From a virus, in the IMG/VR virus record IMGVR_UViG_3300028374_000041, positions 1 through 32,282 of that record: 32,282 nucleotides of DNA. One strand, given 5' to 3'. A program made the translations under genes and the position numbers. The notes below the pieces were generated by a model, which was given only the letters and a program-made list of their open reading frames with translations, was not told the DNA's origin and searched no databases. Positions 2,781 to 18,869 of the stretch are shown piece by piece; position 1 is the first letter of the stretch, and the number at the start of each line of letters is the position of its first letter.

Positions 2781-4447
2781 TGGAAAAGGATATTTACAGT
2801 GGTATATCAAAATTACAAGCTATCTATAATGATAACGAACAACTACCAAGTTCAACAGAAGGTGATGGAACAAAACTAGAAGGAAGAAGATCCCTTTTAA
2901 ACAGATATGCACTATTCTCAAATAGAGGTAATCTAATCAAACCTGCAGATATTGAATCAGGACCAAATCCAAATATTTCAATACCTAAATCTGCATTAAA
3001 TTCTATTGCTCCTAATATTGGAGCACAAGAACAAAAACTTTTAAGAAATCCAGCAGCAAGTTCAATTATTGAATTTTTCAGTTCAAGTGATATCCCAGTA
3101 GATTATGACTGGGGAGATTTCTTGTATGCAAAGTATTATGGTAAAATCCCTAATACACATATGGTTACTCTTAGAAGATATCCCGGCCCAATTGAAGATA
3201 ATATATTTTCTTCTGAAATAAATGCAAAACCTGATATTGCTCGTGCTGTTACTTATATGAGTGAAGAATCGGGTAATAATTTGAAAGAGTTATTAGGGAT
3301 GAATTTCGGATTAAAATATAGAGAAGAAGTGTCAGAGGTTCAAGCATCTAATAATACAGATTTTAATAACCCTATTGATAATGATCTCCTAAATTTATTT
3401 GGATCATTAAGTTCAGGTCAAGGTCAGTCTGATATTTCTGCTTCTGGAGATAAAGCAAATGCAGCAAACGGAGGAACCGATTATGATGCATGGGAAGTTG
3501 AAGGATTTTATGAAAACAGACTTTTTGGACCTATGGATGTTATTGATAAAATGAAAGTTAGAGATAGAGGATTAGAATTTTCTCATACAATAACTTTAAA
3601 TGTTGATTATTCATTAAGAGCATATGGAAATATATCTCCGAAAGATGCTTTACTTGATGTGATTTCAAACATCTTAGCAATTTCATATGCTAACGCTCCG
3701 TTCTGGGGAGGTGCTATTAGAGTTAGAGAAGATTTAAGGTATCACAAATTAATGGGAAATCAAGAATCTCTTAAAAAAGGTGACTTTGCTGGTTATTTTA
3801 CATCTCTTATTGGAGACTTAGGAAATAAAGTACAAAATATATATGCCGGGGGTGCTGGAAATACAGTTAATAGTGCATTAAAAAATTCTGCAGCATTAGG
3901 AGCAAATAAAGCAATCGATAAATTCGGAATGAGAAGAGAGCATCAAAAAATAAAACCTCTTTTATCAGGTGAAGCAACAGGAGATTGGCATGTTACAATT
4001 GGTAACCCAATGAAACCGATTGCAGTAATTGGAAATTTAATTTGTACTGATACTGCTTTAGAGTTTGATAATAATATTGGTGCTGAAGATTTCCCAACTG
4101 GGATAAGAGCAACATTTACTCTAGAACCAGCAAGACCTCGAGATATTACAGATATTGAATCGATGTTTAATGCAGGGAAAGGTAGAATGTATTTACCAAC
4201 AGAAGACGCTAAGAAAGTTGCATCTGCAGCATCAGCAAGTAAAAGTTATTATCTTTCAGGAGGATCTGACCCTAACAATGAAAATTCTCCAGGTGGAAAT
4301 GAAAACCTTGATTCACTTAAATCTCAATTAAAAGGTGGTACTCCATTAGATTCAAGATTCGAAGGATGGGAAACTGGTCAAATTGCAAATGCATTAATCT
4401 TTCACCCAGTAGTTGATGGATTAATAGCAACTGAAAAAACAGATTAA
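2780..4447 (+). CDS. Virion structural protein, gp48-like tail-tube junction/cap (putative)
   Basis: At 555 residues this is longer than T4 gp48 (364). Two blocks are typical of a family of structural proteins in large myoviruses. The first, around residues 250-310, includes RDRGLEFSHTITLNVDYSL and then FWGGA. The second, around 400-470, includes TGDWHVTIGNP, AVIGNLIC, a DFPTGI segment, PARPRD and a MFNAGKGRMY ending. The second block is what I associate with T4 gp48/gp54, the proteins that cap the baseplate hub and start tail-tube polymerisation. The middle has a low-complexity Ser/Gly/Gln stretch (about 205-235) and the C-terminus is Gly/Ser/Asn-rich. It is followed three bases later by a gp53-like gene, fitting a hub and wedge cluster. 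A generic tail structural protein is the main alternative. Confidence 0.6.
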   Translation: MEKDIYSGISKLQAIYNDNEQLPSSTEGDGTKLEGRRSLLNRYALFSNRGNLIKPADIESGPNPNISIPKSALNSIAPNIGAQEQKLLRNPAASSIIEFFSSSDIPVDYDWGDFLYAKYYGKIPNTHMVTLRRYPGPIEDNIFSSEINAKPDIARAVTYMSEESGNNLKELLGMNFGLKYREEVSEVQASNNTDFNNPIDNDLLNLFGSLSSGQGQSDISASGDKANAANGGTDYDAWEVEGFYENRLFGPMDVIDKMKVRDRGLEFSHTITLNVDYSLRAYGNISPKDALLDVISNILAISYANAPFWGGAIRVREDLRYHKLMGNQESLKKGDFAGYFTSLIGDLGNKVQNIYAGGAGNTVNSALKNSAALGANKAIDKFGMRREHQKIKPLLSGEATGDWHVTIGNPMKPIAVIGNLICTDTALEFDNNIGAEDFPTGIRATFTLEPARPRDITDIESMFNAGKGRMYLPTEDAKKVASAASASKSYYLSGGSDPNNENSPGGNENLDSLKSQLKGGTPLDSRFEGWETGQIANALIFHPVVDGLIATEKTD

Positions 4448-7756: not shown

Positions 7757-8794
7757 ATGATTAATAGAAAAGAAAGAGACGATTTTAAAAACGATAACTT
7801 AAAAGATACTCGTTGGTTAGGTCAAGTAATTGATAACTTGGATCCTGATTTTGAGGGTAAAATAAAAGTTAGAGTTTTTGGAAAGTTTGATGAATTAGAA
7901 GATGAAAATTTACCTTGGTCATATCCAACTAATTTTTATACAGCGGGTTCATCATCTGGATCCGGATTCTTTTCAATCCCTAAAATAAATTCAATTGTAG
8001 AAATTGTATTTGATAACGGAGACATTTATCACCCAAGATGGAGAACTCTACATAAAGTTTCTCAAGAGTTAAAAGATAGAATCGGAAATGAGGAAACATA
8101 TGAAAACGCACAAGTTCTCTATTATGATACTGAGTCTCAAATATATCTTTACCATATTGTAAATGAAGGACTTTTCATTCGAACTAAATCTGATAGAGTA
8201 ATTCCTGAGGATTCTGAAGATGAAGAAGAACCACCTGCAAATGAAATTTTAATTACTCCAGAAGATGACATTATAATTAGAAACTTCAATCAGAACGAAA
8301 TTCAGTTACTTCATACAAATGATATTATAATTCAGAATAGAACTGATGAAGATAACGAAATCAATATTAACTCAATTATATTAGATTCTGAAAATAATAT
8401 TACAATTACTAACACTCCAGAAGAAGATGTTAATAATATCATTAGGATAGATAATGAAAATAATATAACTCTGCAAAATGCAGATGAAAATATTATACAA
8501 ATATCAGCCGATAATTTAATTCTATTAGAACAAGCAGATGGAACTGCAATAGAAATCTCTGCTGATTCTGTTTCACTAGGAACTCCTGGTGGATCAGCTG
8601 AACCTTCTGTTTTAGGTGATACTTTAGAAGGTTTATTAAATGACATGATTGCAGATTTAGGAGCAGTTTCAGGTATACCAACTCCAGCAGGACCAAGTGG
8701 ACCTTTACAAAGTGCTCCAAACTGGGCACCATTTGCTCAAAAATATAAGCAATCATTCAAAAACTTTTTAAGTAAGATAGTTACACTCGATTAA
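7757..8794 (+). CDS. gp5: Baseplate spike protein, gp5/VgrG-type, without lysozyme domain
   Basis: Residues about 18-105 form an OB-fold spike domain (WLGQVIDNLDPDFEGKIKVR, then LPWSYP and a beta-rich KINSIVEIVFDNGD segment), as in T4 gp5, phage gpV and VgrG. Residues about 165-275 are a run of short beta repeats rich in Asn, Asp and Ile (units such as NEILITPEDDIIIR and ENNITLQNAD), consistent with the intertwined trimeric needle. A Gly/Pro-rich segment and a helical C-terminus follow. At 345 residues it is far shorter than T4 gp5 (575) because the lysozyme domain between OB fold and needle is absent; no lysozyme-type sequence occurs in the window. Shadow frames on the other strand in 8332-8756 arise from the beta repeats. 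Five bases separate it from the gp54-like gene. Confidence 0.78.
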   Translation: MINRKERDDFKNDNLKDTRWLGQVIDNLDPDFEGKIKVRVFGKFDELEDENLPWSYPTNFYTAGSSSGSGFFSIPKINSIVEIVFDNGDIYHPRWRTLHKVSQELKDRIGNEETYENAQVLYYDTESQIYLYHIVNEGLFIRTKSDRVIPEDSEDEEEPPANEILITPEDDIIIRNFNQNEIQLLHTNDIIIQNRTDEDNEININSIILDSENNITITNTPEEDVNNIIRIDNENNITLQNADENIIQISADNLILLEQADGTAIEISADSVSLGTPGGSAEPSVLGDTLEGLLNDMIADLGAVSGIPTPAGPSGPLQSAPNWAPFAQKYKQSFKNFLSKIVTLD

Positions 8795-9395: not shown

Positions 9396-10565
9396 ATGAA
9401 AAAAACAAACAATAGAAACCTAGAAAAAGAAATTTTAGACTTCGACCGATTTGAAACCAACACCCCTGAATTCCCGTTGAAATCAGGTGAAAGAATAATG
9501 GCAACAGACTATACTCAAAGCGAGCTCAAAAAACTTTATGATATGTACACTGGTAATGACTATAGTTATTATTCTCCAGTTGAAGGTGATAGAGTAAAAG
9601 GCAAGGTTAAATTTATCAGTAATGATAGAGTGGGAGTAGATATTGGATCAAGGCAATATGCTTATCTTGATTTATCAAAAGAAAACAAAGCATACCGAGA
9701 GTATATAATCATTAACGAATTGCTAGAAATTTTGATTACTGAAGCAACAGAAGATACTGTTAAAGGCTCATTCTCAGATTTAGTACAGCAACAAAAATTC
9801 GAAAAAATCAAGGAAACAATTGGAGATGACCATGTTGCTTATGAAGCAAAAGTTGTTGAATTAATTGACCAAGGTGGATATTGGATTGAAATCGACGGTA
9901 TCAAAGCGTTCTTACCTGGCTCACTTGCAGGGATGAACAAATTACATGACTTTGAATCTTTAGTTGGAGAAAACATTACTGTAATGCCAGTAAACTGGTC
10001 GAAAGACAAGCAATCAATTGTTGTATCTCACAAGAAATACTTAGAGACTTTAATTCCTAGAACAATTAGAGAACTTGATTATTCTACAAGATATAAAGGA
10101 TTTGTAACAGGTAGTACTTCATTCGGAGTATTTGTACAATTTAATGAATGTTTAACTGGGATGATTTATAAATCTGATTTAGATGATACTTGGTCAGAAA
10201 ACTTCAGGAAAAGAAATATTAACCCAGGAGAAGAAATTGAATTTAAAGTGAAGGAAGTTCTTTCACATAAGAAAATAATTTTAAGTCAGAATTATAATGC
10301 ATATGATCCTTGGGAAGGAGTTGAAGAACGTTACAAACAAGGAACAAATGTAGAAGGTACAATTAAGAAAGTTAAAAACTTTGGTATCTTTATTGAACTT
10401 GAAGAAGGATTAATAGGGTTATTAACTCTACCTCAATCAATGACTTCTGAAAAACTTGCGAAATTTATAGAAGGTGAAAAAATTACAGTGAAGCTATCAG
10501 TAATTGATAGAGAAACTAGAAAAATATTCTTTTTATTCGCAAATCAAAAGATTAGAAAAAAGTAA
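9396..10565 (+). CDS. Ribosomal protein S1-like, four S1 RNA-binding domains
   Basis: The 389 residues contain four S1-type OB domains: about 62-125 (GDRVKGKVKFISNDRVGVDI), 147-213 (AKVVELIDQGGYWIEIDGIK, then FLPGSL), 231-299 (KGFVTGSTSFGVFVQFNECL, then KKIILS) and 317-385 (GTIKKVKNFGIFIELEEGLI). This is the architecture of shortened bacterial S1 proteins, which bind single-stranded RNA and help the 30S subunit start translation. Bacterial rpsA products usually have four to six domains. The gene sits alone between a promoter-like motif and a terminator, in the middle of baseplate genes. The start at 9396 gives a 34-residue polar leader; an alternative ATG at 9498 would give a protein starting MATDYTQSE. 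It may direct ribosomes to phage mRNA or act as an RNA chaperone. Domain assignment is firm; role is inferred. Confidence 0.88.
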   Translation: MKKTNNRNLEKEILDFDRFETNTPEFPLKSGERIMATDYTQSELKKLYDMYTGNDYSYYSPVEGDRVKGKVKFISNDRVGVDIGSRQYAYLDLSKENKAYREYIIINELLEILITEATEDTVKGSFSDLVQQQKFEKIKETIGDDHVAYEAKVVELIDQGGYWIEIDGIKAFLPGSLAGMNKLHDFESLVGENITVMPVNWSKDKQSIVVSHKKYLETLIPRTIRELDYSTRYKGFVTGSTSFGVFVQFNECLTGMIYKSDLDDTWSENFRKRNINPGEEIEFKVKEVLSHKKIILSQNYNAYDPWEGVEERYKQGTNVEGTIKKVKNFGIFIELEEGLIGLLTLPQSMTSEKLAKFIEGEKITVKLSVIDRETRKIFFLFANQKIRKK

Positions 10566-10585: not shown

Positions 10586-10614
10586 AAAAGCTCGTAGAAA
10601 TACGAGCTTTTTTT
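10586..10614 (+). terminator. Rho-independent terminator after the S1-like gene
   Basis: A perfect 11-bp stem (AAAAGCTCGTA at 10586-10596 with TACGAGCTTTT at 10601-10611) closes on a GAAA tetraloop, and T residues continue to 10614. It lies 20 bases after the S1 stop codon and isolates that gene from the amidoligase operon. Confidence 0.93.
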
Positions 10615-10621
10615 GTTTGTT

Positions 10622-10629
10622 AATAAATA
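10622..10629 (+). promoter_or_regulatory. T4-late-like promoter candidate AATAAATA
   Basis: This is a 7 of 8 match to the T4 late promoter TATAAATA, 21 bases before the ATG at 10651 and just after a terminator. Similar xATAAATA boxes precede 18897, 21690, 25153 and 30093. AT-rich DNA makes chance matches easy, so support comes from the repeated spacing. Confidence 0.4.
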
Positions 10630-10650: not shown

Positions 10651-11937
10651 ATGAATAAGGAAATATTAGAATTAACAAAAATTGGTTTCGAGTTTGAGTT
10701 TATAACTGAACTTTCGAATAATGACCTTAAGAATAAATTAGAAAAATTATTCAACAAGAAGTTTATTATAACAGATCAGTATCATTCAGATATTAAAGTT
10801 ACTGATAGGCAATTTAAAATTGAACCTGATTATTCAGTAGGAATAACAGGCAGAGAAATTATCACCGGACCTTTAAGATATTATGAAGCAATGGAGGTCT
10901 TAGAAAAAATGTCTTCATTTATTAGAAGATTCGGAAAGACTGATACGAAAACAGCATTCCAACCTAACATTTCCTTTGAAAAGGAAGTATTCACTTCTTT
11001 AAAACATAGTTTCAATCCATTGAAATTTATTTTAGAGTTTGATGAAGAATACATCTATGAAAGATTTCCTGAAAGAAGAAATAACTTATACGCAAAATCT
11101 ATTAAAAGATTGAAACCTGTAAGTAATTTATTTAATGTTTCAGAATCTGGATTTAACTCTAAGATAATCACATACCCCGACTCTAAATACTATGGAGTTA
11201 ACTTTGAAAAATTAAGATCTGATTATTTAGAAGTAAGATATTTAGGCGGTAGTTTTTATGAGTACAAATTAGAAGAATTAAAAGAATCTATAGATTATTC
11301 AATACAGAAAATTTATGAGTCTTCAGTTGTAAATGAAAATAAATTATCAGATGACAATATGCTTGCCATTAAAGAAGTTGTACACAAATACAATAATTTA
11401 AGATCTAATGTAAGTTCAGTAAAAAACTTAAAAGAAGCATATCCAAATATTAAGTTTTATACAGATTTAGAGCGAGATAAAAAAGTAATCGATAATAAAC
11501 TATTTTTATTAAGAGATAAAATGACAGATTTGTTCTTTAACAATGACTTGAAAGAGGGTATTATCAATTACGATTCTGAGAAAGGAAGATTTCAATTGAA
11601 AAACTTTGAGTTAGATTCATGTGAATTTGAAGGAGTAGATTTCTTAAACTGTAAAATTTCAAACACAATTATAACTGGAAATGCAGAAATTCATATGTCA
11701 GAAATTAAAAATTGTGATATAACAGAATGTAAGTTATATAGAAATAAGATTAAAAATACAAGAGTTAAGAACTCGTATACTAACTCTAAAAATATTCTTG
11801 AAAAATGTTATGTGGATGGACCTATGACAAAATTTAATGGAATATTAAAAAGTGGTATTTTCAGAAAAGGCACTATATTAAAAGATGCACAATTCTCAAC
11901 AGATAACACGGAAATAATAGAATATAATAGATTTTAA
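10651..11937 (+). CDS. Putative amidoligase (carboxylate-amine ligase-like) with pentapeptide-like C-terminal domain
   Basis: Residues about 10-225 match the layout of the phage/bacterial amidoligase family (PF12224, glutamine-synthetase/GCS-like fold). The blocks are an N-terminal acidic IGFEFEF (11-17), IEPDYS then GREIITGPL (57-75), a FQPNISF strand where many members have HVH, and YYGVNFEKLR followed by YLEVRYLGGS (180-201). Such enzymes use ATP to join a carboxylate to an amine, forming amide bonds on peptides, proteins or small molecules. Residues 316-415 form a pentapeptide-like beta ladder with regular five-residue spacing (CEFEG VDFLN CKISN TIITG). Residues 225-310 are helical. The stop is two bases from the next gene, a structural protein, so it is expressed with wedge genes. 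The His of the HVH motif is absent, so activity is uncertain; substrate is unknown. Confidence 0.6.
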   Translation: MNKEILELTKIGFEFEFITELSNNDLKNKLEKLFNKKFIITDQYHSDIKVTDRQFKIEPDYSVGITGREIITGPLRYYEAMEVLEKMSSFIRRFGKTDTKTAFQPNISFEKEVFTSLKHSFNPLKFILEFDEEYIYERFPERRNNLYAKSIKRLKPVSNLFNVSESGFNSKIITYPDSKYYGVNFEKLRSDYLEVRYLGGSFYEYKLEELKESIDYSIQKIYESSVVNENKLSDDNMLAIKEVVHKYNNLRSNVSSVKNLKEAYPNIKFYTDLERDKKVIDNKLFLLRDKMTDLFFNNDLKEGIINYDSEKGRFQLKNFELDSCEFEGVDFLNCKISNTIITGNAEIHMSEIKNCDITECKLYRNKIKNTRVKNSYTNSKNILEKCYVDGPMTKFNGILKSGIFRKGTILKDAQFSTDNTEIIEYNRF

Positions 11938-11939
11938 TT

Positions 11940-12683
11940 ATGACAAGACAAGAATTTATAACATTAGTTAATGATGAGGTAACAGCAGACTGTGCCCTGC
12001 CATTTAATGTACCAACAAAAGCAATTAATAGAATGATTGACAAATTAGCAAAGCCTTGGTTCTATAGAAATTATGAATATGCTTTAGAAGAAAGATATTT
12101 AATTATTAATCAAGGGTACGAAAATTCAGAAATGTTTAAAAAGGAAAAAACTGTTAAATTACCAGACTGTATTTTCTCAGTATACTCAGTAAGAGATACA
12201 GGTGGAAATTCTTTATTTGGAAATGCAGATTCAGATATTTACGCTGAAAAATTCTTAGTACAACAATCTGGAGTAGGGACGTTAGATTTAGCACCTGAAA
12301 ATTTAGTTTATGCAACATTCAATTTATTATATTTAGATATAATAGAACAGTTTACACATCAGGCTATTACTTTTGGATATAATCATTTAACACACAAACT
12401 TACTTTAAATGGTGAGATCTCCTTTACTGATGTAGTACTTACTGTTGCAAAAAAGATTCCTGATGAGAATTTATTTGACGATGAATACTTCTTAAAATAT
12501 GTTGCAGGTTTAGTGAAAAAGAATTTAGGTAGAGCACTAGGAACTGCAAAAATGCCTTTAATCGGAAATGCTGAAATTGACTTTGGTGAAATTAAAGATG
12601 AAGGAAAAGAAGACATGCAAGAAGTAGAAGATGATATAAAAGGAGATGAAGGAGTTGATTATTTCTTTATGAGTCCTCAATAA
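11940..12683 (+). CDS. Virion structural protein of unknown position
   Basis: This 247-residue protein lies two bases after the amidoligase-like gene and 12 bases before gp25. The middle and C-terminal parts recall a family of structural proteins in large myoviruses. Features are a W-F-Y-rich N-terminal third (KPWFYRNYEYALEERYLII), a DDEYFLKYVAGLVKKNLGRA block near 180-200, a KMPLIGNAEIDFGEI turn, and an acidic helical end. In other phages such proteins are annotated simply as structural or neck/connector-like, and I cannot choose between those roles. There is no signal peptide. Cotranscription with gp25 and gp6 favours a baseplate or tail-completion component. Confidence 0.6.
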   Translation: MTRQEFITLVNDEVTADCALPFNVPTKAINRMIDKLAKPWFYRNYEYALEERYLIINQGYENSEMFKKEKTVKLPDCIFSVYSVRDTGGNSLFGNADSDIYAEKFLVQQSGVGTLDLAPENLVYATFNLLYLDIIEQFTHQAITFGYNHLTHKLTLNGEISFTDVVLTVAKKIPDENLFDDEYFLKYVAGLVKKNLGRALGTAKMPLIGNAEIDFGEIKDEGKEDMQEVEDDIKGDEGVDYFFMSPQ

Positions 12684-12695
12684 AAATAATTTTAT

Positions 12696-13046
12696 ATGGT
12701 AGATTTATATTTAAGACCAGAAGAAGAAAATACAGATATTTTAGAATCATATGAACCAATAGAAATATTTGTTCAACAACTTGAAGTTCTTTTCTTTACA
12801 CAACCAGGAGATGTTTTAGGATCACCTAGAATGGGAATTGACTTAGAAAGGTATGTACATGAATTGTTTTTAAATGAATATGACTTGAAACAGAAAATAA
12901 ATATTCAAATAAAGCAATACTGTCCTTTAGCATTACAGTTTAGTTATGATATAGGGATCTATTTTGCAAAAGCATCTGACAGTAGAGACGCTGTACTTAT
13001 AAACGTAACAATAGAAAACGAAACAATACTTGGAATAGTATTATAA
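12696..13046 (+). CDS. gp25: Baseplate wedge protein gp25 (GPW/gp25 family)
   Basis: The 116-residue length is near that of T4 gp25 (132). The diagnostic block FTQPGDVLGSPRMGIDLERY at about residues 34-53 corresponds to the conserved turn where the chain passes from N-terminal helix to the strands of the gp25/P2 gpW fold. The C-terminal half has the expected strands (LQFSYDIGIYFAK, then AVLINVTIENE). gp25 sits at the inner end of each wedge and contacts the sheath and gp6/gp53. It is followed 14 bases later by gp6, the gp25-gp6 pairing common in contractile tails. Assignment is firm. Confidence 0.88.
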   Translation: MVDLYLRPEEENTDILESYEPIEIFVQQLEVLFFTQPGDVLGSPRMGIDLERYVHELFLNEYDLKQKINIQIKQYCPLALQFSYDIGIYFAKASDSRDAVLINVTIENETILGIVL

Positions 13047-13060
13047 AAAATAGTTTAGAA

Positions 13061-14815
13061 ATGAAATTTAAAATTTTAAATACTGCAAGAATTACTTTTG
13101 AATCAATGATAGTTGATACATTCCAGTATCTAACAAAAACTTACAATCAATCAAAAGTAGTTTTCACTAAGGCATCACCTTATTTACAAATATTAGAAAC
13201 TATCCAAGAAATTATTAACTTGAACTTTTTATATTTTGAGGATGCTGTTACTGAATTTAATATCTATACTGCTCAAAGAGATTCATCTATTTATGGTATT
13301 TCAAGATTAGCAGGACATAATCCTAAAAGAGTTGATGCAGCAAGAGGATCAGTACAGTTTCAATTTGTCCCAGGTGGTCAAAATGAAGTAGCAGGGTCAT
13401 TTGTTAACTTCGGTAAGAATCCTGTCTTAAAATGTCTAAACAATGAAATATTTTATACTATTTTAAACAATAGACCAAAAAGAATTTATACAGATTCAAC
13501 TAACCCATTAAACTACCCATTACTTCAAGGTAGATTTCAATCACAAAATTTTACAGGAGATGGAAGACAATTGCAATCTTTTAACTTACAAGCTTCATCA
13601 GGACAGCAAATTGATAACCAGTACGTTCAAGTGAGAGTAAATGGAAATACTTACAAAATATATGACTTCCTTTATGACATTCCAAGAAATGGATTTGGTT
13701 GTTTAGTTAAAACTGGGATTGCAGGTGGAATAGATGTTTATTTCGGTAATGGTAATTTCGGAAATATTCCTCCTCGAGGATCTGATATTGAAATTGAATA
13801 TTTAGAAAATATCGGATTTAATGGAAACATTGATAGAAACCCAAAAGAAATTCAATTCGAATGGGAAGAAGATATGACTGATTCTTTAGGGAATGATGTT
13901 GATCCAAATGAAGTTTTTAGAGTTTCATTAAGAGAGAAAATATTATTTGGTACAAATGCAGAGAATCCTGAGTTCACAAAACTTATAGCGAATAGAGGTA
14001 GTACTACAAACGTTCTGGCGAACCCAGAGAAATACGTGTATTATCTGTCGAAACTAAACTGGTTCTCTTTCGTAGACGCTTATTCTACTTATCAAGACGA
14101 GTACTTGGATGACGACAATGTAATCTACTTATTTCTGATTCCTGATATTAGAAAAAAATTAACTACTGATACAAATTACTTCACAACATCTGAATCTAAT
14201 TTTGTTTTGGAGCAACAAGAAATTGATTACTTAAAAGCATCGATTAGAGAAAGTGGCCAGCAGGTAATGCAATCAGAATTAGTTTTTGTAAATCCTATTA
14301 TTAGAAGATATGGATTAAATATTATTTTAAAAGTATTCAAAGGATATAACTATAACGATTTAAGATCTGAAATAGTTGCACAATTATCAGATTATTTCTT
14401 AGAAACAAGAAGAAGAGATATTATGCCTAAATCAGATATCATTAATTTACTAGAAGATATTGATAAAGTTGATTCTGTAAATGTTGAGTTTGTTTCAGAA
14501 AGAAATGAAGCTGCTTTAAGAAATGGATTTTATTTTAACGAAAGAGTTCAAGGTAACACTTTAGTTAAAGAAAGAATTTCTCTTGAAAACAATGAAGATC
14601 CTAGATTAGGATTAGATGATTTCGGAGATATTATAATCGGTCAAAATGAATTGCCAATTATAAGAGGTGGATGGAATGATAGATTTGGACAGTTTTATGA
14701 AGAATTCCCTGAATTAAATAAAACAAGTTCAATTAATGTAGTAATTGCTCAAGAAATTGAGGAAAGTCTACAGTCAAGAATTTCAAGACAATCAAAAGAA
14801 GGCAAGGACATATGA
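13061..14815 (+). CDS. gp6: Baseplate wedge protein gp6 (baseplate J-like)
   Basis: The 584-residue protein is near T4 gp6 (660). The N-terminal third carries the gp6 signature: an INLNFLYFEDAVTEFNIYTA helix near residues 50-70, then SSIYGISRLAGHNPKRVDAA near 76-95. A beta region and a C-terminal J-like part follow, ending in LLEDIDKVDSVNVEFVSERN near 465-485. gp6 dimers tie neighbouring wedges into the hexagonal ring. Bases about 13985-14150 (residues 308-363) use CTG, TCG and GAC codons that are uncommon nearby, a local composition shift inside an otherwise uniform gene. The gene overlaps the next by four bases (ATGA) and is the only one in the window to stop with TGA. Confidence 0.85.
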   Translation: MKFKILNTARITFESMIVDTFQYLTKTYNQSKVVFTKASPYLQILETIQEIINLNFLYFEDAVTEFNIYTAQRDSSIYGISRLAGHNPKRVDAARGSVQFQFVPGGQNEVAGSFVNFGKNPVLKCLNNEIFYTILNNRPKRIYTDSTNPLNYPLLQGRFQSQNFTGDGRQLQSFNLQASSGQQIDNQYVQVRVNGNTYKIYDFLYDIPRNGFGCLVKTGIAGGIDVYFGNGNFGNIPPRGSDIEIEYLENIGFNGNIDRNPKEIQFEWEEDMTDSLGNDVDPNEVFRVSLREKILFGTNAENPEFTKLIANRGSTTNVLANPEKYVYYLSKLNWFSFVDAYSTYQDEYLDDDNVIYLFLIPDIRKKLTTDTNYFTTSESNFVLEQQEIDYLKASIRESGQQVMQSELVFVNPIIRRYGLNIILKVFKGYNYNDLRSEIVAQLSDYFLETRRRDIMPKSDIINLLEDIDKVDSVNVEFVSERNEAALRNGFYFNERVQGNTLVKERISLENNEDPRLGLDDFGDIIIGQNELPIIRGGWNDRFGQFYEEFPELNKTSSINVVIAQEIEESLQSRISRQSKEGKDI

Positions 14816-15057
14816 GAACAGAAGAAAAACTTTACGGAATATCAGGTAAAATAAATAACAATATAAAGAATATTGGGTATGCTTACGAAGGAAAAGTAAT
14901 CAAGAACTCAATTTCTGGATATTTATTAAAGAACAAAAATATTGCTGGATTTATTGAGATGTTAGAACCTATGATTACTGAAGTTATAGCTCTCCCTAAA
15001 AAATTAAAGGCATTTTGGAACTTTACAATACCTAAAAATTATAGAGATTTTAATTAA
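14812..15057 (+). CDS. Small hypothetical protein between gp6 and the gp7-like gene
   Basis: This 81-residue basic protein has overlaps on both sides: four bases with gp6 (ATGA) and one base with the next gene (TAATG). That argues that it is real and translationally coupled. It has a moderately hydrophobic helical middle (GFIEMLEPMITEVIALPKKL) but no clear transmembrane segment. No family is recognised. Its position between two wedge genes suggests a small wedge or assembly factor. Confidence 0.68.
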   Translation: MRTEEKLYGISGKINNNIKNIGYAYEGKVIKNSISGYLLKNKNIAGFIEMLEPMITEVIALPKKLKAFWNFTIPKNYRDFN

Positions 15058-18000
15058 TGCCTTTTCTAGACAATAAAAAGTTAATATTTTTTGATAAAAA
15101 TGGTTATGATGCTAACTTCACATTAGAAGACGGTGTTTACAAAGGATCATTTTATTTACCAACAGTTTCAACATTTCTAATAAGTTCACTGAACTTTTTC
15201 ATTTATGAAATATTTGAAGTAAATGGTGAGACAAAGTACGGCCAACCTCAAGATATTGCTGGAGTTGCTGAAGAAACAATTATTCGATCTACATTTTCTG
15301 ACAAAGAAGATAAAAGATGGAATTTTTATTCATTCGAAGAAAGAGGAGAACTGAAAGTATTTACAGAAAGCCCTTCTCAATTTAATTCTACGGATAATGA
15401 TGTACGAACTACTGGAGTAACTACTACGGGAATTGCAACTACAAATGCTGTTGATGGTGAAGGTATAAAAGTAAAAGCATCATTTGCTACAGGAGATGAA
15501 GGTTCTTTCAGAAATACTATTTACATATATGCAGATAATCAAGATACTGATACTTCAGAATTAATTGCCGAAATTGAATTATACATTGAAGTAGAAGAAG
15601 AAGATGAAAGATTAGGAACCCTTATTAATAACTTTTATAAAGATGTAGAAGTTGACCAACAAGATTTCTTTATTTTCAGAGATGTTGATATTAAAGAAGG
15701 ATATCCTGATTGGACAATTATTAATTCCAAGTTAAAAGAGATGCTTTTAAATGGGGCAAATTTAAAAAACTATCAAGGATCTTATAGAGGTTTAATTACA
15801 GCAATAAGATACTTTGGATATGATGCATTAAGAATAAACGAATACTTTGAGAATGTTGATGCATCTTCTGAGAATTTCGGGAAGCTAAGATTCAAATCAG
15901 TTGCGGATCAATTTGATGGAGTATTAGATCCATTTTTCAATAAAGAGGAAGAAGTACTTCCTAATAAATTCTGGAAAAAGACAGCAAACTTTGGTTTAGC
16001 ATATGATTTAAATAAAGTTGTAAAAGGAGAATTCGATGAGTATGGATTACCATTAGTTGAAGATGCCTTTGATTTCTCTAACGAAGAAATTCTAATAAAG
16101 TTACAAGGATTAAAAGAAAAATTAAAATCTAAATTCTTACCTCTTTCTGCAAGAATAATTTCGGTTACTGGAGAAGGTAATTATTTTTCTAAATATGATA
16201 TTAATACTTGGTCAGATGCAAATGAAAGAGATGTAGTTGATGTTGGAAAAAGAGCAACTCTAGATGTGAATCCTGAGCCTCAAGGTTTTATTATTAGTTT
16301 AAATAAATTATTAATAGAAATCGATTCAATAGTTAGACAGGATGCAGATTTAGTTGTTCCTACTGTTCAAGAAAATACTTATAATACAGCTTTAAACAAT
16401 GAGATACCATTACAAAATATTGCAGTTGAAGTTGAAAATGTAACTGTCAATGGAAATGATTTCTTTGTTAAAGGAGTTGATTATATTTTAAGTGGAGCTA
16501 AAGATTCTATTATTTGGACTTCTAATACGTTTACTTTACAGCAATCAGATGCTATTGTAATTACATATACATATTCTGCACTTGATATTCCTTTAGAAAC
16601 ATGGAATCCAAATCCAACGACTCCATATAATAAACTTAAAGAAGATATTATAGATCAGTCTATAATTTTAGATTCGAAATATACACAAACATTTTTAGAA
16701 TCTATTATTAATAAAGTAGATGATTCATATTTACTTACAGATGATGAAGATACTCCAGTTGGATGTCCTTTAACTTTAACAAATACTACTTTTAAAATAG
16801 AGTGGGATGAAATGGCAATTCAGTGGAATGAAGCAAATGAAGGAGTTAATGGAACACTTACTACTTGGGATAAAATCAAATATGAAAACTTCTACGAAAT
16901 AGAATGGACTATTGTAAAGAGAGTAGATAACGACTCACCGCAAGAGTGGACATATAATTTAAGAGGTAACGTTCAACAATATGAAAGTATTAATCTTATA
17001 TTACCTTATAAAGGTACTTATGATATTGATATGAGACTTTATAATACTTTTAATTCAAGTACTTCAGAGAATTATGTTTTAGAAGTTGAACAAAAGAATC
17101 CTGAAATTGTTGCAAATCATAAAGCATTTAGAACTGATTATACTTGGGAAGATTTTGATAGAGACTGGGAAAATACATGGTTTACATGGGCAGTTAACTT
17201 AACGGGTGATTTAAACTGGGAAGATGCTGACACAACTTGGAATTCAATTGATAAAGCGAATTACTCAAATGCAAGATTCTACAATGATTTATATAATTAT
17301 ACTTTAAATGACATTGAGAATGCTCTTTGGAACGAATTAGATCACTTATGGTGGGAAGGTACAAATGATGCAATTTTCTATAATCCTTATAACTGGAAAG
17401 ATATAGGGTTAAAAACATGGAATCAGTTTTATCAAAATGAAACATGGGATGGAGTAAAACTATCATCTGATTCTCCTGCATTTTTTGAAATCTATTCAGT
17501 TGAAGATATTGGAGCAAAAATGACAATAGGGAAAAGAATTCCTAGAACTTATGAAGTAACAACTCAAGTTCCAGGAGTTGGTCCTGTTACTGAGATATTT
17601 GATTATAAATATAAATTTATAAGAACAAATCCATTGGATCATCCTGAAGGTAATTTACTTGCTATAAAAGATACTCCCGGGAATACTTTATTAACTATTT
17701 CTAGAGATACAAACAGATATATTACAGCTCTTAATGGAATTGATTTCACAACTAAAAGAGGAATCTTTATTGAATTTACAAAAGAGTATGATGGATCTAA
17801 TATTTTAATTGGAGAACCTGCTATTAATGATGAGATTAAAATTATCTTAAATGGAACTGAATTAATTGAAAATACTGATTATACTATTATTGCAGGAGAT
17901 CCACAAACTATAAATTGGATTACTTCCATAGTAAACGGAGATTCAGTAGAAGTAAGTTATTATTCTTTAGAAGAAAAAGTATTAGAATTAGACAATACAA

Positions 18001-18869
18001 CTAATTTTATAAATCTAGGGAATAATACATTAGAAATAAATGATTCTTTATTTTTTAATAATCTAATTGAAAATGGTACTATTAATTTAAAAATTCCTTC
18101 AGGTAGTAATACTGTCACTATTTCCAGACAAATAGAAACAATTAATAGTTTAAATAATACTATTACTTATTCAGGAGCAAATAGATCTACAATCAATGAG
18201 ATACAAAATCCACTTAATTTTGATTTTGTATATAATGTAGCAACATATCCTCCTTTAAAAGAGTCTGCATTGAGAACTATTATTCAAGCTTTATCTGAAT
18301 ACAATGCTGATTTATATTCATCTGAAACTTTAAGAAATGTTTTTGATGTTAAAGGTGATACTATTGAGTTTAGTAATTCTGCAGTAGACTTAGAAATTGC
18401 ATATCAAGAATTATTATCTTCTGATTTGCCTAATTTCAAAAGATTCAATTGGAATATTCTATATGAAGAAGACGAAATCACTGTAAATAGGATTCAAGCA
18501 ACTTCAAATATTTTTAGTGAATCTCAAGAGTCATATATAAAATATGAAAACATCTTAGGTGATGAATATGCCCCTGCAATTACATTAAACTATAATTGGA
18601 GTGAGTTAAGAATATTTGAAACAAGAAAAGAGTTACCTCAATTCTGTCAAGTAATATTCTCATATGATAATTCAACAATGGCAGGGAAACAATTAACCGG
18701 CAATTGGGAATTAACTGAAGTTGAGTCAGGAACTACCTATACTTTAACTGAAAATATCTTTTCACATTTCTTCAATAGAAGAGGTGAATATATATTAAAA
18801 TTGGATCTTAGTGATTCAAACGGAAACTTCAAAGAAACGATAAAACAAGGATTCGTAGTAATTGAATAA
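15057..18869 (+). CDS. Large baseplate structural protein, positional gp7 equivalent
   Basis: At 1270 residues and directly after gp6, this is the positional equivalent of T4 gp7 (1032), the large wedge protein; sequence alone does not prove homology. Residues 1-400 are mixed alpha/beta with acidic linkers. Residues about 580-800 are unusually rich in Trp (17 in roughly 220), arranged as short W-containing units such as TWEDFDRDW, LNWEDADTTW and LKTWNQFYQNETW. Ig/PKD-like strands occur around 640-690 (NLILPYKGTYDIDMRLYNT) and again at the C-terminus (RRGEYILKLDLSDSNG). Other copies of an Asn/Asp-rich beta unit occur around 430-520 and 920-990. No enzyme motif is visible. It shares one base with the preceding small gene and is followed by fibre-like genes. 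Confidence 0.6.
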   Translation: MPFLDNKKLIFFDKNGYDANFTLEDGVYKGSFYLPTVSTFLISSLNFFIYEIFEVNGETKYGQPQDIAGVAEETIIRSTFSDKEDKRWNFYSFEERGELKVFTESPSQFNSTDNDVRTTGVTTTGIATTNAVDGEGIKVKASFATGDEGSFRNTIYIYADNQDTDTSELIAEIELYIEVEEEDERLGTLINNFYKDVEVDQQDFFIFRDVDIKEGYPDWTIINSKLKEMLLNGANLKNYQGSYRGLITAIRYFGYDALRINEYFENVDASSENFGKLRFKSVADQFDGVLDPFFNKEEEVLPNKFWKKTANFGLAYDLNKVVKGEFDEYGLPLVEDAFDFSNEEILIKLQGLKEKLKSKFLPLSARIISVTGEGNYFSKYDINTWSDANERDVVDVGKRATLDVNPEPQGFIISLNKLLIEIDSIVRQDADLVVPTVQENTYNTALNNEIPLQNIAVEVENVTVNGNDFFVKGVDYILSGAKDSIIWTSNTFTLQQSDAIVITYTYSALDIPLETWNPNPTTPYNKLKEDIIDQSIILDSKYTQTFLESIINKVDDSYLLTDDEDTPVGCPLTLTNTTFKIEWDEMAIQWNEANEGVNGTLTTWDKIKYENFYEIEWTIVKRVDNDSPQEWTYNLRGNVQQYESINLILPYKGTYDIDMRLYNTFNSSTSENYVLEVEQKNPEIVANHKAFRTDYTWEDFDRDWENTWFTWAVNLTGDLNWEDADTTWNSIDKANYSNARFYNDLYNYTLNDIENALWNELDHLWWEGTNDAIFYNPYNWKDIGLKTWNQFYQNETWDGVKLSSDSPAFFEIYSVEDIGAKMTIGKRIPRTYEVTTQVPGVGPVTEIFDYKYKFIRTNPLDHPEGNLLAIKDTPGNTLLTISRDTNRYITALNGIDFTTKRGIFIEFTKEYDGSNILIGEPAINDEIKIILNGTELIENTDYTIIAGDPQTINWITSIVNGDSVEVSYYSLEEKVLELDNTTNFINLGNNTLEINDSLFFNNLIENGTINLKIPSGSNTVTISRQIETINSLNNTITYSGANRSTINEIQNPLNFDFVYNVATYPPLKESALRTIIQALSEYNADLYSSETLRNVFDVKGDTIEFSNSAVDLEIAYQELLSSDLPNFKRFNWNILYEEDEITVNRIQATSNIFSESQESYIKYENILGDEYAPAITLNYNWSELRIFETRKELPQFCQVIFSYDNSTMAGKQLTGNWELTEVESGTTYTLTENIFSHFFNRRGEYILKLDLSDSNGNFKETIKQGFVVIE

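Follow-up and report, generated by a model that had tools for sequence, protein, structure and literature searches.

A protein of 428 residues that probably helps to build the virus particle, and that is also an enzyme at most in some phages, is encoded in the stretch of viral DNA analysed here (IMG/VR record IMGVR_UViG_3300028374_000041, positions 1 to 32,282; 32,282 nucleotides, hereafter the window). It carries an amidoligase-like fold joined to a C-terminal pentapeptide-like beta helix, and our reading of its role follows from sequence comparisons, because some related phages still encode it at the same position although its active site is gone. We propose, with a probability of about 0.55, that it is a core component of a tail/neck-baseplate cassette, consisting of a captured Amidoligase_2 domain and a beta helix, whose shared role is non-catalytic and whose ligase site is complete in many lineages, whereas other lineages possess a pseudoenzyme. 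The features on which the analysis is based are compiled in the table.

Table. Position of the amidoligase-fold gene, its motifs, neighbouring genes and candidate expression signals (window positions unless a relative is named)
Feature	Position	Strand	Basis
Baseplate spike / OB-domain protein (Phage_base_V)	7757..8794	+	Profile matches
Three-S1-domain protein, upstream neighbour in the conserved order	9396..10565	+	Profile matches, locus comparison
Terminator-like hairpin (Rho-independent type, 11 bp stem, both strands) separating the S1 and amidoligase-fold genes	10586..10611	+	Hairpin search
AATAAATA box, 29 nt 5' of the start codon, candidate late promoter element	10622..10629	+	Inference
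Amidoligase-fold / beta-helix protein (P0001), 428 aa	10651..11937	+	ORF, profile, model
GFEFEF, residues 12-17; E14/E16 = first glutamate pair of the GS/GCS fold	10684..10701	+	Invariant in 59 rows; lost in broken members; = canonical G-I-E-I-E
E58-x-D60-x-S62 ... E69, second acidic motif	10822..10857	+	Invariant in 59 rows; = canonical D-x-S...E
Q104-P-N106, in the place of canonical H-x-H	10960..10968	+	Alignment with canonical H92
R142, invariant arginine	11074..11076	+	Alignments; = canonical R127
K179-YYGVN184 ... E194-V-R196, C-terminal catalytic motif	11185..11238	+	Alignments
C-terminal pentapeptide-like beta helix, residues ~301-418	11551..11904	+	Model strands every 5 residues; weak profiles
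G402-I-F-R405-K-G407, near the helix end	11854..11871	+	R405 tracks the state of the ligase site
Ad2-like head-tail adaptor, 2 bp downstream	11940..12683	+	phrog_211, E 1.7e-10
Small conserved cassette gene	12696..13046	+	Locus comparison
Baseplate wedge subunit	13061..14815	+	phrog_219, E 8.9e-19
ATATATAAA hairpins of relatives	L003:3929-3976; L056, L036, L046, L034: each 3920-3967		Stems differ in sequence and register

Fold, fusion and catalytic motifs

Inspection of the ORF and its translation confirmed the gene boundaries and the motifs that a sequence-only reading of the window had listed, namely, GFEFEF (residues 12-17), IEPDYS (57-62), GREIITGPL (approximately 67-75), FQPNIS (103-108, including Q104 and N106) and YLEVRYLGG (192-200). 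In the profile search that this reading had proposed, the protein passed the curated cut-off of PF12224 (Amidoligase_2) narrowly, with 22.6 versus 22 bits over residues 9-152, and the same profile matched 25 of 39 homologues at E <= 0.1. An AlphaFold model built with 39 family sequences (mean pLDDT 90) resembled the catalytic domains of glutamine synthetases (Z up to 12.7, rmsd 3.0 over 181 residues), as did its first 300 residues alone (Z 12.6), and the named top viral predicted-structure matches were mostly phage "amidoligase enzymes". The amidoligase/glutamine synthetase-like fold initially read from the motifs is thus borne out by the predicted model, which covers the glutamine synthetase region from about residue 105 on and not the N-terminal domain of that enzyme. 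Glutamate-cysteine ligases were absent among the best 50 structural matches, from which no exclusion follows. The segment SGVHYNFS of Escherichia coli GshA resembles by eye CGIHYNVSF of one relative (L083); we consider this HYN motif a look-alike only and not a sign of kinship, since the family profile gave no alignment of note with E. coli GshA, nor did it with GlnA.

The five-residue repeats, reported earlier to begin at residue 316, are real and start at about residue 313. In the model, DSSP assigned short strands at five-residue spacing (320, 325, 330, 335 ... 366, 371; overall 320 to 373). The PF13599 (Pentapeptide_4) score of the window protein was 19.3 bits, below the cut-off of 38, and the best match among its relatives had an E value of 1.7e-07. 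Solved pentapeptide-repeat proteins were weak profile and fold matches of this part; among such proteins, MfpA, AlbG and Qnr likewise form a beta helix with five-residue rungs, whereas the window helix comprises approximately 110 residues, is fused to a ligase-like domain and stays below the Pfam cut-off.

To locate the catalytic positions, we used a reference alignment of eleven canonical or divergent phage amidoligases, in which E20, D45, S47, E54, H92, R127, N169, E180 and R182 are invariant and E22 and H94 nearly so. The profile of the window family aligned with that of the canonical phage amidoligases at 98% probability (E 2.8e-13). Salinivibrio phage CW02 gp9, phiEco32 phi32_84 and Arthrobacter phage Salgado 98, all PF12224 proteins, belong to the same family and share the ordered motifs G-x-E-x-E, D-x-S...E, R, N and E-x-R. 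The acidic, Ser, Arg and Asn ligands are all present in order in the window protein (E, E, D, S, E, R, N, E, R), and E14, E16, D60, S62, E69, R142, N184, E194 and R196 occur in all 59 pattern-sampled members. By these alignments, the protein is a PF12224 member by descent, with an architecture and context distinct from those of the phage amidoligases compared. In the window family, HxH is replaced by HxN or QxN/G/S, K56 stands in place of an invariant W, a C-terminal beta helix is added, some members lack the entire site, and the gene occupies a slot among structural genes instead of an operon with GATase, COOH-NH2 ligase and ATP-grasp genes.

The replacement of the usual HVH by FQPNIS, already noticed in the sequence, is real: the window reads QxN at the HxH pair. 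Most members have HxN, and QxN (window) or QxG/QxS (one clade) were found in 19/59, with H at the first position in the other 40/59. Of the two histidines of HxH, glutamine synthetase uses the first to bind metal and the second for contact with the ATP phosphates; Q104 may therefore weaken or abolish activity. As a mark of a dead enzyme, however, Q104 was rejected, because the members with Q retain all other ligands and the truly broken members look quite different. As only the HxH pair is altered, the odds that the window protein is catalytic appear about even. Its nearest neighbours in the tree, L174 and L188 (support 93/84, long branches), have HLN, and the H to Q change is thus probably separate from that of the L008 clade, with which the window was grouped weakly (68/76).

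Distribution, gene order and expression signals

A total of 88 relatives were confirmed in IMG/VR, far more than chance would give; 80 of them were kept, and nearly all aligned over both domains. Full-length members are present in phages that include records of 462-735 kb, and tblastn matches were obtained in LR756500 (462 kb), LR745206 (634,780 bp), LR756504 (636,363 bp), LR756502 (642,428 bp) and LR756501/LR756503 (735,411 bp). For comparison, the four largest complete genomes reported by Al-Shayeb and colleagues measure 634, 636, 642 and 735 kb (PMC7162821). A weak tblastn match was found in Agrobacterium phage Atu_ph07, and the tblastn search of bacterial and archaeal genomes revealed no relative.

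The sequence-only reading had placed the stop codon two bases before a structural gene, among closely spaced wedge genes. The spacing is correct, with the stop ending at 11937 and the next ATG at 11940, but the immediate neighbour is the Ad2-like adaptor, and the wedge gene proper begins only at 13061. To avoid choosing loci by the amidoligase-fold gene, we sampled 80 IMG/VR loci by the wedge protein, of which 57 had at least 5 kb of upstream sequence and were testable. The amidoligase-fold gene was present within the fetched stretch in 56 of these 57 loci and lay approximately 3 kb beyond it in the 57th. The order spike, S1, amidoligase-fold gene, Ad2-like gene, small gene and wedge, all on one strand, was observed in 55 of the 57. 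In the relatives of the 634 kb phage this order is rearranged, yet the amidoligase-fold gene adjoins a gp25-like baseplate gene.

The gene in Atu_ph07 (AUZ94978) resembles the window family in its Amidoligase_2 match (30.2 bits), in the motif variants EPDGS and HIN (HxN), and in where it lies, namely, in a region of virion-protein genes with the wedge gene on one side and the portal gene on the other. When accession numbers are counted from the portal (gp198) and the major capsid protein (gp215), it comes out as gp196. According to the Atu_ph07 report, CDS 170-215 form one of three clusters that hold most of the particle proteins detected by mass spectrometry (PMC6102473), and the gene position of gp196 falls inside this cluster. 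The protein differs in that it is only ~28% identical over 38% of the window query, has a large insert after the N-terminal motif, shows no detected match to the beta-helix part, and is encoded next to an RlaP-family (RNA repair nucleotidyltransferase) gene (L082:12965-13957), also between the wedge and portal genes.

Several further genes deserve mention. Matches to the S1 protein also occur at other places in the 634-735 kb phages, and Lak-C1 has one too. Window positions 15057-18869 encode a 1270-residue tail-region protein, part of which, close to the C terminus, weakly matches a PKD domain (21.4 bits; cut-off 23.5). In the LR745206 phage, a gene for 663 residues with weak DHH and winged-helix matches lies 3' of the ligase-like gene (L085:16811-18802).

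As to expression, the terminator-like hairpin and the AATAAATA box, which is likewise found before 18897, 21690 and 30093 in the window, suggest that a transcript probably starts with the amidoligase-fold gene and continues into the Ad2-like and wedge genes. A AATATATAA(A)CTATA-type box, possibly a second promoter class beside AATAAATA, was seen upstream of window positions 408, 1844 and 9396, and also before the gene at L011:2340. In one group of relatives, a hairpin with the conserved loop box ATATATAAA(C/A)AAAT lies directly 5' of the start codon of the amidoligase-fold gene (z about -5 to -8); the leader hairpin of the window is weak and not significant (z -1.07), although it is strong in these relatives.

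Two states of the active site

Our first set of homologues suggested an invariant active site, but it was biased because it had been seeded partly by GFEFEF, and this was corrected by sampling via the wedge gene. Members were then scored at eleven motif positions, allowing H or Q and N, G or S at the HxH pair. The distribution was bimodal in that 100 of 129 members scored 11/11 and the remaining 29 scored 1-6, with none at 7-10. Of the wedge-sampled proteins, 70 had sufficient length for scoring; 41 of these were complete and 29 broken. The sequence-only reading had set an active enzyme against an inactive structural derivative; both states in fact occur in one family.

The broken members are full-length and have retained both the slot and the beta helix. 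Pairwise dN/dS values in their ligase domain ranged from 0.01 to 0.15, like those of the intact proteins, with several synonymous distances saturated. Purifying selection therefore acts on both states, strongly so on the broken copies, which are not decaying pseudogenes. After reduction to 90% identity (58 intact and 16 broken proteins), the positions conserved in the intact state only were mainly the catalytic ones together with H45, S46, K56, E58, Y147, K179 and R405. The last of these, located in the beta helix, was present in 58/58 intact but only 4/16 broken proteins, and this loss of R405 along with the ligase site suggests that the helix end takes part in the amide ligation expected of a complete site. 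Conserved in both states were F17, T97, K125, L128, E132, P140, R142, Y197, G199, G200, Y203, N306, Y307, G402, G407 and a few more.

In a tree computed after removal of the motif columns, broken members fell into three supported groups, which requires at least two changes; a single origin was not rejected (AU p 0.26), and one loss may account for all of them. Because the canonical relatives outside the lineage are intact, it is simplest to regard the broken state as derived. No second copy of the gene was found in contigs with broken versions, 294 kb and 254 kb in length, and the broken lineages could carry a ligase elsewhere, in parts of the genome outside the sample.

Role of the protein

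That selection maintains the protein, its partner domain and its place in the tail cassette even where the site has been erased argues for a non-catalytic job, which, to judge from the location, would be done in tail or neck assembly or in the virion. We envisage that a lineage of very large myovirus-like phages captured an Amidoligase_2 (glutamine synthetase-fold) domain, which became joined to a pentapeptide-like beta helix. The selected role shared by all descendants would be to bind or scaffold a partner, either while the tail or neck is assembled or inside the virion, using the helix and the conserved framework of K125, E132, G199-G200, N306, G402 and G407. In many lineages, the complete site would in addition form an ATP-dependent amide bond, of the isopeptide or glutamyl type, on the bound partner, as the fold leads one to expect, whereas in others the whole catalytic set would have gone, leaving a pseudoenzyme. 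The scaffold role is suggested by retention after active-site loss, a trace that a regulatory or ligand-sensing role would leave as well. A more specific version, which we put forward tentatively, is that of a ligase resident in the virion or acting during assembly: intact lineages would spend ATP on isopeptide or glutamyl bonds, formed on a tail or neck protein that the helix holds, with R405 coupled to the site, and the sister phages would possess a purely structural pseudoenzyme.

One alternative, the main idea of the sequence-only reading, is an enzyme only: a late ATP-dependent ligase, docked by its helix, whose target for tagging or cross-linking would be a virion protein or the host wall. 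The complete catalytic sets are spread across proteins only ~29-38% identical to the window protein, and the behaviour of R405 is consistent with a coupling of helix and catalysis; yet a purely enzymatic role seems rather unlikely, given that the 29 members with a destroyed site keep their slot under purifying selection and that the canonical partner genes are absent from the genomes searched. Canonical phage amidoligase genes adjoin those of class II glutamine amidotransferase, COOH-NH2 ligase, ATP-grasp and gamma-glutamyl cyclotransferase proteins, in agreement with the annotation of LUZ24-like phages (PMC3890496). PF13522 (GATase_6) and PF14395 (COOH-NH2_lig) had no match in LR756500, LR756501, LR745206, LR756504, LR756502 and Atu_ph07, the window itself being a 32 kb fragment, whereas phiEco32 and O4 do match.

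Another reading is that the S1-domain and amidoligase-fold proteins form a translation-related pair acting on the ribosome or its mRNA, and that the place in the tail cassette reflects late expression only. The S1 gene is indeed the upstream neighbour in 56 of the 57 testable wedge-sampled loci, with overlapping ORFs in some. However, it lies more than 200 kb away in LR745206 and LR756502, the ligase-like gene of the LR745206 type stays beside the gp25-like baseplate gene, no ligase match accompanies the S1 match in Lak-C1, and a terminator-like hairpin separates the two genes in the window, all of which makes such a pair improbable. That the gene is a relocated member of an early phage amidoligase operon, making a modified small molecule, peptide or base, would agree with the shared Pfam family and motifs, but we consider it highly improbable in view of the canonical neighbourhood and of the missing GATase_6 and COOH-NH2_lig matches in the huge genomes described above.

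Common to the 634-735 kb phages and to a wide environmental phage lineage, the gene is fixed in the tail cassette, and a limited literature search found no description of a phage amidoligase with pentapeptide repeats. The family offers a natural experiment in the passage from an enzyme to a building part of a virus, in which one and the same slot holds complete and wiped-out sites. Should the intact members prove active, they would modify phage particles at the expense of ATP.
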